A DNA stretch of 35,373 nt, taken from the NCBI RefSeq assembly GCF_000423425.1, contig NZ_AUHY01000029.1, forward strand, positions 1 to 35,373. The letters are read 5' to 3'. How positions within the stretch are numbered: position 1 is the first letter of the stretch; every line of letters starts with the position of its first letter. The stretch comes from Meiothermus rufus DSM 22234 (GTDB taxonomy: Bacteria; Deinococcota; Deinococci; Deinococcales; Thermaceae). The notes under the pieces are model-generated. The model had not been told where the DNA came from. It saw nothing but the letters and a program-made list of their open reading frames with translations, and did not search any database. Made by a program: the position numbers and the translations under genes. Of the stretch, positions 10,274 to 15,868 are shown piece by piece.

Positions 10274-10277
<4 letters not shown>

Positions 10278-11659
10278 CCGTTGGCCCGCACCTCTTCCCA
10301 GGTATAGCGCTTTAGAATGGCCCCGTTTTCGAAGACGGTTTGCAGGATGCTCTTAGGATGAGGGGTGGGGCCTTCCAGTTCCACCGTGCGGATGCCGCGC
10401 TCGTCTTGGATGACGTCCAGTCGGCCTTTCTTGCTGGCCTTGCCATGGTCGTCGATGGGGCTTTTGCTCACCCCGTAGGTCTGGCCGTCCACCGTGACCA
10501 GGTGCAGCTTCTGGGCAAACTTCTGGGTATCGCGGTGGGGGTGTTGCAACAACGCCCCCCCCATGCCAAAGGCCACGTTGGAGGCGCTGTAGCCCCACTG
10601 CTCCAGCAAAAAGAGAATCTTGCCGATGGTGTGCTTATTGATGCCGTCGCCCTGGATGACCCGCACCCCTTTGAGCACCTTGTAGCCCTTCCGGTTGAGG
10701 GTTGCGCCGAAGTGGGCCTCGAGGGTCTGCACGGTGCGCAGCACCACGTAAGGGGGGTCGCCGGAGTCGGGGCGGATGACCGCGGTGGCCCCGGAACGCA
10801 CGATCAGGTCGCGCAGCTCCTGACCGATGATCTGGCCCACGGCCTGCTCGCGGTTGTAGGAGTCCACCACCATGGCGAACAAGGCCCCCGGCTGGCCGAA
10901 GGTCTCGATCATCTGGCGGTAGGCCTGAGCCTCGCCCTCACGCCCGAAGCTGGTCACGGTGCTGTGTTCCATGGCCGGGATGCTGTAGCCGGCCATCTGG
11001 GCGCCGTAGTAGTTGCGGGCATAGATCAGGGCGGTCACGGTGTCGGTGCCCTGGAAGTTGACCAGGTGGGCCATCCCACCCAGGCCGGCGCTCTCCAGGC
11101 TGCTCACCCCTCGAGCACCGAAATCGTGCAGCTTGAAGGGCAGCTCGGCCTCGGGGTCGTCGGCGGTTTTTTCCAGGTACTCCCGGATCAGGTTGCGAAT
11201 CTCCCAGGAGACGGTGCAGACCGTGGTGGGGTACCAGACCGCCCGCAGCAGGGCGGTCTCGAGCCAGCCCGGCAGCCAGGGCACCTTGGGGTCGGTGCTC
11301 TCGATGATGACCAAAGGGTTGTGCACCGGCACCACCAGGCCCTCCGGCACGGCCCGGATGCGGATGGGTAGCCGGCCTTCCAGCTCCCGGGCGATGTACA
11401 TCCAGCCCTCGTAGGGGAAGGGCAGGCCGTGGGCCTGGAAGACTGCCTGGGCCTCCTCTACGTCCTGGGGGCTTACCCCTGGGGCCAGGTACTCCATCAG
11501 GAAGGCTTGCAGCCCGAAAAAGCGCACAAAGTTAGACTCACCCCCCCGGCTCTCGATATACCAAGAGCCGAAGGTCATGCCCTTGGGAAACTGGGCGAAG
11601 TGGCTGGCCTTGTAGCTGTCGGTGTTGAGAATCAGGTTGCGGGGGTTGAGGGGTTGCAT
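10274..11659 (-). CDS. nadV: Nicotinamide phosphoribosyltransferase
   Basis: 461 residues, a full-length NadV/NAMPT. Motifs shared with human [15 protein letters not shown] at the N-terminus, [12 protein letters not shown] followed by [11 protein letters not shown], the catalytic-histidine segment [10 protein letters not shown], and [10 protein letters not shown] of the phosphoribosyl site. It converts nicotinamide plus PRPP to NMN, the first step of two-step NAD salvage. The start lies 28 bp inside the end of the upstream NMN adenylyltransferase gene and is preceded by AAAGGAG, consistent with translational coupling. The next enzyme and the regulator are upstream in the same operon. Confidence 0.95.
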
Positions 11660-12666
11660 AATGGCTCCTTTCTCTCCAGAAACCAGCGGATCTGCTGGTA
11701 GTGGTCCTCGAAAAAGCGGGCCTGGTGCTGGGGGAGTTCGTCTAGGGGCAGCCAGAAGGCCCGCCCTGCGTCGTCCCGGCCCTGCACCGGGGGGGGTGGG
11801 GTGGGGCCCAGGTCGAAAAGGTGGCCGAAGCTGATGACCCGGCCCCGCAGGCTGCGGTCAGGATAGTCGAAGGCCTTGGTGGCGTGGAGCCAGGCGGGGG
11901 CCAGCTCCAGACCGGTCTCTTCCCGCAGCTCGCGCAAGGCGGCCTCGAGCAGGGTCTCCTGGGGTTCCACATACCCCCCCGGCAGGGCCCAGGCCCCCCG
12001 GCTCAGGGCCCCAGCCCGCTCGACCAGGAGCACCTGGCCCTGGGCCAGCACCGTGGCGTCGGCGGCTACATGAAGGATGGGGTAGGGGTAGCGCTTTTCC
12101 AGGGCGCGGTAGTGCTGGATGGTTCTCCACTCGGCCTGCAGGCGGGTGTACTCAGGGCTCTGGGCAAACTGCTCCAGGTAGTGCCGCACGGCCTCCGGCA
12201 CCATGGCCTTCCAGGCCTCGTCGCCGTCAAAGTAGCGCTGGCGCACAGCGGTGGCGCTCAGGGGGCTCACCACCCCGCTGGGCTCGAAGGGCCAGTCGCC
12301 GAAGCCGTGCAGGTAGTAGCTGCTCTGGTCCTTATGGTAGCCGGTGATGACCACCTGGGCCCCGGGGCCGGTGATGGCCTCTATGGCCGCCCGCACACTG
12401 CGGAACCAGCGAGGGTCGTCGTAGAAGTCGTCGGGCACGGCCACGAAGTGCAGCCGGGCCTCCAGCTCGGGGTTTTCCTCCCTCAGGGCGGCCCGGATCA
12501 TGGCCTCGCGTGCCTCGGCGCTGAAGGGGTTTTTGGGGGTAGGGTAGCACAGCGCGCTGCCCAGCACCACCACCAGCCGGTTATAGCGGGCCAGCGCGCG
12601 CTGGATGGTCTCGAGGTGGGCCCGGTGGGGTGGCTGGAAGCGCCCGATGAACACAGCGGTTTTCAT
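11632..12666 (-). CDS. nadM: Bifunctional NMN adenylyltransferase / Nudix hydrolase
   Basis: 344 residues. N-terminal nucleotidyltransferase domain (about 1-185): [10 protein letters not shown] at 8-17 and the SATAVR motif near 137-142. C-terminal Nudix domain (about 195-335) with an intact Nudix box at 230-253 ([20 protein letters not shown], then EETGL). Known relatives, such as cyanobacterial slr0787 and a Deinococcus protein, make NAD from NMN and hydrolyse ADP-ribose. It completes the nicotinamide to NAD route with NadV. Start at 12666 with a GGAGAG ribosome site; its first bases overlap the end of nrtR by 4. Confidence 0.94.
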
Positions 12667-13421
12667 GCTTCTCTCCTGAAGCGGTATAGCTCAGCGGGGC
12701 GGAAGCCGGTGCCTTTTTCCAGCTCCCCGGTGGCCTGAAGCAGGCCCGAGGCCAGCATCTTCCGGCGGAAGGAGTCTTTGTTGAGCTTTTTTTGCAGGAT
12801 GGTTTCATACACACGCTGTAGCTCCCGTAAGGTAAAGCGTTCAGGCAGCAGCTCAAAGCCGATGGCGGTGTAGCCCAGCTTCCCCCGAACCCGCTGGATG
12901 GCTACCGCCAGAATCTCACCATGGTCGAAGGCCAAGGAGTAGCGCTTGTGCTTGCCATCGAAAATTTCCGCCCGGCCTTCTTCTTCCACCAGGCGCAGCC
13001 GGAAGAGCATTCGTTCCTCGGGGATTTCCTGCAGGTGGCTGGCTTCCACCAGGGCATAGTAGGCCACGCTAATGACCCGCCCGCGCGGGTCGCGCCCAGG
13101 TCTGCCAAAGGTGTAGAGCTGCTCGAGGTAAACCGGGTGTTGGCCCAGCCCTTCCCGGCCTGCCCCACCCACTCTTCCCTCCAGTCCTGCTTTCTGCCGC
13201 AAGACCCTAAGGGCTGCTTCCTCTAGTGATTCGTTGATTTGCACAAAGCCCCCAGGCAGGCTCCAGTAGTTGAGGAAAGGGTGCTCTTTGCGTTTGACCA
13301 ACAGGGCCTGGAGGTGTCCTTCCCGCAGGGTCAGGATGACCACATCCACCGTAACGGAGGGGCGGTCGAACCGAGGGGGCTCGCGTTTCTCGAATGGCTC
13401 AATGGGGTCGCGCCAGGTCAT
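12663..13421 (-). CDS. nrtR: NrtR-type Nudix-related transcriptional regulator of NAD metabolism
   Basis: 252 residues. A Nudix-like domain with a degenerate box at residues 57-80: [20 protein letters not shown] lacks the paired catalytic glutamates (REUXEE reads RVLRQK), the hallmark of NrtR proteins, which sense ADP-ribose rather than cleave it. A winged-helix DNA-binding region follows at about 165-245 ([27 protein letters not shown]). A small insertion ([13 protein letters not shown]) follows the Nudix box. First gene of the nrtR-nadM-nadV operon, so autoregulation is likely through the inverted repeat upstream. Confidence 0.9.
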
Positions 13422-13462: not shown

Positions 13463-13485
13463 ACAGCATAGATGCACACAGCATA
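13463..13485. repeat. Direct repeat ACAGCATA in the nrtR promoter region
   Basis: ACAGCATA at 13463-13470 and again at 13478-13485, 15 bp apart. The second copy contains the nrtR -10 hexamer; the first offers a second TATGCT on the minus strand. Confidence 0.4.
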
Positions 13486-13508
13486 TATGTTTTATGTATC
13501 TAAGTCAA
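13480..13508 (-). promoter_or_regulatory. Sigma-70-type promoter of the nrtR-nadM-nadV operon
   Basis: -35 TTGACT (13508-13503), 17-bp spacer, -10 TATGCT (13485-13480), predicting a start near 13473 and a leader of about 50 bases. Confidence 0.6.
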
Positions 13509-13519
13509 TCTTTAGATAC
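13496..13519. promoter_or_regulatory. Candidate NrtR operator: inverted repeat around the -35
   Basis: GTATCTAA (13496-13503) and TTAGATAC (13512-13519) are perfect 8-bp arms with an 8-bp spacer (16 bp centre to centre). The -35 of nrtR lies between them. Position suggests repression of the NAD operon; binding by NrtR is inferred. Confidence 0.55.
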
Positions 13520-13587: not shown

Positions 13588-13616
13588 TTGATTTTTTTCA
13601 GGACAACGCCTAATCT
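13588..13616 (+). promoter_or_regulatory. Promoter of glnN
   Basis: -35 TTGATT (13588-13593), 17-bp spacer, -10 TAATCT (13611-13616). Expected start near 13623, about 95 bases before the GTG start codon. Confidence 0.55.

Positions 13617-13717: not shown

Positions 13718-15868
<2,151 letters not shown>

Follow-up and report, generated by a model that had tools for sequence, protein, structure and literature searches.

A predicted double operator for NrtR at the nrtR-nadM-nadV promoter of Meiothermus rufus, and a sister palindrome in the glnN leader

The window analysed here, the whole 35,373-nucleotide stretch of DNA from Meiothermus rufus DSM 22234, holds the NAD salvage genes nrtR, nadM, and nadV, separated by a 296-bp intergenic region from the divergent glutamine synthetase gene glnN (Table 1). 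This arrangement raises the question of which regulator controls the nrtR promoter, and through which DNA site it does so. NrtR proteins, as Rodionov reportedly described them in 2008, are ADP-ribose-responsive repressors of NAD metabolism, and the mechanism of NrtR itself is already known. No mention of NrtR together with Meiothermus was found in the literature searched; Rodionov 2008 and Huang 2009 lie outside that search, and an earlier mention of the motif is possible. A preliminary description of this locus had placed an NrtR operator in a perfect inverted repeat around the -35 hexamer of nrtR. The promoter and the regulator named there are right, and the operator was misplaced.

The gene order nrtR-nadM-nadV was confirmed, and the product of nrtR scores above the gathering cut-offs of both PF00293 (48.6 bits) and PF21906 (89 bits). 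Like the NrtR family, exemplified by SoNrtR (PDB 3GZ5/3GZ6), it holds a Nudix-like N-terminal domain with a degenerate Nudix box and an NrtR winged helix, and its gene shares an operon with nadM and nadV and is preceded by a 21-bp palindromic operator with TTA...TAA ends, an arrangement that suggests autoregulation beside NAD genes. The degeneration of the Nudix box, already noted in the preliminary description, is evident in the sequence RVLRQKAGL, which lacks the catalytic glutamates and stands where REUXEEXGU would be expected; this signature is impaired in the aligned NrtR orthologs too. With the NCBIfam equivalog NF050029 (NtrR), the protein reaches 161 bits against a cut-off of 400, and this model appears to be narrow. 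As regards glnN, the copy of one relative (L072, G008:C152:4156-6304) consists of two overlapping matches in different frames, and is either frameshifted or misassembled.

Table 1. Features of the nrtR-glnN locus (positions of the window).
Feature	Positions	Strand	Basis or remarks
nadV, nicotinamide phosphoribosyltransferase family (NAMPT_N + NAPRTase)	10274..11659	-	domain matches
nadM, NMN adenylyltransferase + Nudix domain, box intact	11632..12666	-	domain matches
nrtR, Nudix-like domain (degenerate box) + NrtR_WHD	12663..13421	-	domain and sequence matches
Double NrtR operator (predicted), 36 bp: TTAGATAC-ATAAA-ACATATATGC-TGTGT-GCATCTAT	13468..13503	-	pattern match, alignment, phylum scan
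B2, downstream 21-bp palindrome	13468..13488	-	overlaps -10 and predicted start site
-10 hexamer TATGCT of nrtR	13480..13485	-	within operator core
B1, upstream 21-bp palindrome	13483..13503	-	overlaps -35 end and spacer
-35 hexamer TTGACT of nrtR	13503..13508	-	TTGA invariant across 18 aligned promoters
Extra half-site (outer arm of the inverted repeat), GTATCTAA on the minus strand	13512..13519	-	5' of -35, this species only
Likely glnN promoter, TTGATT-N17-TAATCT	13588..13616	+	by eye, weak
Site A, single 21-bp palindrome TTAGATGC-AAAAA-GCAGCTAA	13660..13680	+	5' leader of glnN; centre 192 bp from B2
glnN, glutamine synthetase type III, divergent	13718..15868	+	domain match

The hexamers TTGACT (13508-13503) and TATGCT (13485-13480), located on the minus strand with a spacing of 17 bp, form a sigma-70-like promoter for nrtR. 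The inverted repeat formerly proposed as the operator, GTATCTAAGTCAATCTTTAGATAC (GTATCTAA-N8-TTAGATAC, 13496-13519), is indeed present, with perfect 8-bp arms and a single match in the 2.74-Mb genome when up to two mismatches are allowed. Its arms had been said to bracket the -35 hexamer, but they do not do so cleanly: one is located upstream of it, and the other (13496-13503) is on the -10 side and shares the final base of TTGACT. The symmetry of the repeat is by itself a weak signal, since dinucleotide-shuffled versions of the intergenic region show perfect 8-bp inverted arms, with a loop of up to 20 bases, in 9.4% of cases. A search of the orthologous promoters of relatives recovered the complete repeat in none of the 17 aligned: the outer arm is missing from every one of them, its columns holding 0.13 bit of information, equal to the background, and only the inner arm (TTAGATAC) is kept, as the first half-site of a conserved 36-bp element. 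For want of a conserved outer arm, the repeat is rejected as the operator; its absence from orthologous promoters is an outcome that the preliminary description had itself named as refuting.

The idea that the repeat itself is the NrtR operator around the -35 can nevertheless appeal to its perfect and genome-unique arms, both of which match the NrtR half-site TTAGATRC. This half-site occurs three times in the window, always within the nrtR-glnN intergenic region, where an extra copy arises by chance in 1.2% of the shuffles (p ~0.012). However, besides the missing outer arm and the frequency of comparable repeats in shuffled DNA, the half-sites of the repeat are everted, facing outward around N8, unlike the conserved NrtR-type sites of this and other phyla, which face inward and span 21 bp in total, and this reading is considered very unlikely. 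The outer arm, an exact match to the half-site without an inward partner, may at most represent an accessory half-site specific to M. rufus.

The 36-bp element was defined from NrtR orthologs drawn from 50 genomes of the family, which together with the window provided 18 aligned promoters with the consensus TTGACTTATNTGC-N5-GCATATATGCT-N4-GCATATAAG. It is conserved in all of them and has sharp edges, the mean information per column being 0.28 bit upstream, 1.3-1.7 bits in the half-sites and the core, and 0.36 bit downstream. The half-site located 3' of the -10 has no role in the promoter, which makes a bound protein the likely reason for its conservation. Two overlapping 21-bp palindromes can be made out in the element, TTATMTGC-N5-GCATATAT and, shifted by 15 bp, ATATATGC-N5-GCAKATAA, both of them near perfect in the genome of the genus g3 (G003). 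In M. rufus, these palindromes (B1 and B2) share ACATATATGC/GCATATATGC, which lies in the middle of the element, and the double operator extends from the -35 to the +1 of the nrtR promoter. The M. rufus operator deviates from the consensus at two places, its last half-site (GCATCTAT) and the first half (TTAGATAC), and the promoter-operator pattern matches positions 13467-13508 with one mismatch, with zero matches expected in shuffles. The operator is also kept in M. granaticius (G006) and in G003, where nrtR does not adjoin glnN. This conserved element and its sister palindrome in the glnN leader were both missed in the first reading. Another genome, G018, holds two copies of nrtR on two contigs (C1:1665772-1666473 and C2:33101-33802), each with an operator, the second of which is identical to that of G007.

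A 42-base promoter-operator pattern was searched for in 111 Deinococcota genomes, this length being used because a single 21-bp pattern gives background matches. The pattern is present in 23 genomes, and a reversed control pattern had no match in any of the 111. NrtR, called at E <= 1e-20, is present in 25 genomes, including all 23 with the operator, which places the operator in 23 of the 25 genomes with NrtR versus none of the 86 without it (Fisher p 8e-22), although this count, like the 16 of 16 recognition helices given below, comes from related genomes and is not made of independent cases. Some of the genomes detected had themselves contributed to the pattern, and only four were new to it (G055, G056, G057, and G072). 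The new matches in the first three lie before nrtR, and G056 holds a second operator on a contig other than that of nrtR (L159:1501-2246), before an isochorismatase-family gene with weak similarity to nicotinamidases. In G072 (L179:444-1511), the operator precedes a Band_7 and NAD-kinase-like gene pair with nrtR not alongside, which suggests an in-trans target; relatives elsewhere of the gene behind Band_7 match NAD kinase models weakly. The NrtR proteins of G050 and G053 are more divergent, and no match to the operator pattern was found in these two genomes.

The single 21-bp pattern was discarded as a genome-wide predictor after yielding background matches at two mismatches, for instance in Thermus and, next to a probable GntR gene, in G004. 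A palindrome of comparable form and 21 bp in length, TTACATGC-N5-GCTTATAA, occurs at L037:1501-1521 and at G003:C7:850076-850096, and in G004 it lies, by eye, between the genes of a GntR-type regulator and a TAXI-type transporter; it is probably a GntR site and not an NrtR one.

The double operator is also found before nrtR in metagenome-assembled (MAG) contigs labelled Trueperaceae, where nadV lies downstream of nrtR, Thermoanaerobaculia, and Acidimicrobiaceae, and in partial form in one labelled Myxococcales. In the MAG loci labelled Thermoanaerobaculia, Acidimicrobiaceae, and Myxococcales (L082:2685-5451, L085:3962-6629, and L081:394-3266), nrtR is followed by a gene for a Band_7/SPFH protein and by a weak NAD kinase match, the product of which has NAD kinase 2 as its nearest solved structure, an apparent NAD-related operon without a family name. 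A NADAR-domain gene directly follows nrtR in two genomes (L158:304-762 and L160:2429-2905), both from one other family of the order.

The comparison of 80 NrtR loci from many phyla places this operator within the family. The 21-bp palindrome TTAGTGT-N7-ACACTAA, with up to three mismatches, lies upstream of nrtR in 32 of the 80 loci, with none in the coding control, and was not found at the Meiothermus locus (L078) or at the other double-operator loci of this set; the nearest relatives of the window NrtR have an ATGC-type operator. The recognition helix reads NK[DA][SA]FRR in all 16 double-operator proteins and DK[RG]NF in all 32 proteins with TTAGTGT-N7-ACACTAA. The positions that differ are equivalent to K179, R180, N181, and K184 of BtAraR, which contact the DNA in the structure of its complex (PMC4666351). 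Judged from these alignments, the recognition helix and the operator change together, delimiting a branch of the NrtR family with its own operator type. The missing TTAGTGT-N7-ACACTAA marks this branch rather than excluding it from the family, because the operator motifs of the family are variable (PMC4666351). Taken with the 18 aligned promoters and the phylum scan, this supports the claim that NrtR has an operator on the nrtR-nadM-nadV promoter, and the promoter is very probably autorepressed by NrtR through the 36-bp double operator.

Compared with SoNrtR, the inner half-site is ATGC/GCAT instead of GTGT/ACAC, the recognition helix is NKDSFRR instead of DKRNFRK, and a single element holds two palindromes with a 6-bp overlap. 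The closest solved sequence is AraR from Bacteroides thetaiotaomicron (PDB 5BS6; PMC4666351; E 4e-31), which also recognises a 21-bp motif and has two tandem operators at its main target promoter. Unlike the sites described here, however, those of AraR have a GTGT core and are non-overlapping, 3 bp apart, and AraR senses arabinose and controls sugar genes (PMC4666351), whereas the neighbours here are NAD salvage genes and glnN. The mycobacterial NrtR is likewise an autorepressor, a role that is predicted here, with a catalytically inactive Nudix domain and a palindrome located between its own gene and a divergently transcribed operon, but its site is the 23-bp GTTTTCGA-N7-TCGAAAAC and it controls the de novo genes nadABC (PMC6800001). 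NadQ, in turn, has a homologous C-terminal DNA-binding domain and a motif with similar TTAT...ATAA ends (ttATRCTCannntGAGYATaa), although its N-terminal domain is unrelated to the NUDIX N-terminus of the window NrtR (PMC5343134), and its match to this protein is limited to residues 163-250.

Site A, the single palindrome of the glnN leader, follows the likely glnN promoter and precedes the start codon of the gene, and the orthologs carry a similar TTGATT...TAATGT before glnN. It is conserved with at most two mismatches in 14 of the 16 loci where both genes are linked, and is degenerate in L012 and L016. The presence of a copy there could indicate that the palindromes bind a different regulator tied to glnN, for instance a nitrogen or GntR-type one, and not NrtR. 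However, in six genomes where glnN is not next to nrtR, two of which (G003 and G006) keep NrtR, site A was not found before glnN (at least five mismatches); the palindrome is present at nrtR without glnN; the operator is absent from the 86 Deinococcota genomes without NrtR; and its sequence varies in step with the recognition helix of NrtR, all of which makes another regulator highly improbable.

With NrtR as the protein that would bind it, site A is compatible with two functions. One of them is the control of glnN, by which NrtR would repress glutamine synthetase III alongside NAD salvage and link NAD to nitrogen assimilation. The position of site A and its conservation in the linked genomes speak for this function, as does the tie between NAD and nitrogen status that PII-NadE makes elsewhere (PMC7196632), while its degeneration in L012 and L016 and the unlinked glnN genes without a site, even where NrtR is kept, speak against it. 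Such control of glnN is quite possible, though short of an even chance. Outside Meiothermus, none of the 80 NrtR loci has glutamine synthetase III (GSIII) near nrtR, L078 being the single case. The other function is that of an auxiliary operator, with NrtR at A and B looping the intervening 190-205 bp for a tighter repression of nrtR. In 14 genomes the distance from A to B2 falls into two groups, 188-193 and 203-206 bp, which differ by about one helical turn, and the helical phasing of A and B is suggestive; but the concentration of the phase is modest (R ~0.57) and might reflect one or two insertion events, and AraR is described as a dimer (PMC4666351), no tetramer having been found in the literature searched. 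Such looping is considered unlikely. Within the proposed autorepression, site A could serve glnN repression, the support of nrtR repression by looping, or both, and the role assigned to it is a guess.

The proposed regulation would start with two NrtR dimers on the double operator blocking the RNA polymerase. The operator covers the -35, the spacer, the -10, and the start site, and bound NrtR should therefore exclude the polymerase; this position agrees with the repression by promoter occlusion put forward in the preliminary description, which the comparative evidence favours. When NAD is broken down, the resulting ADP-ribose would be bound by the catalytically dead Nudix domain, and the repressor would leave the DNA, by analogy with S. 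oneidensis, Synechocystis, and streptococci, where the release of NrtR from DNA by ADP-ribose has been reported. NAD salvage would then be switched on through NadV and NadM, and NadM could clear the ADP-ribose signal with its own Nudix domain, which is intact. NrtR at site A would probably restrain the divergent glutamine synthetase III or stabilise the repression from afar.

For Meiothermus and some of its relatives, this analysis yields an NrtR operator that can be tested, and it predicts further targets among nicotinamidase-like, NADAR-linked, and Band_7/NAD-kinase-like genes. The matched change of the recognition helix and the half-site in one repressor family is useful for understanding how repressors with a winged helix come to recognise other DNA. 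A connection of NAD salvage with glutamine synthesis is also suggested, and can be checked. A more tentative and rather doubtful extension would be that, in Meiothermus, an NrtR branch with its own operator code ties nitrogen assimilation to the NAD/ADP-ribose status, NrtR at the double operator and in the glnN leader co-repressing NAD salvage and glutamine synthetase III, possibly via a DNA loop.
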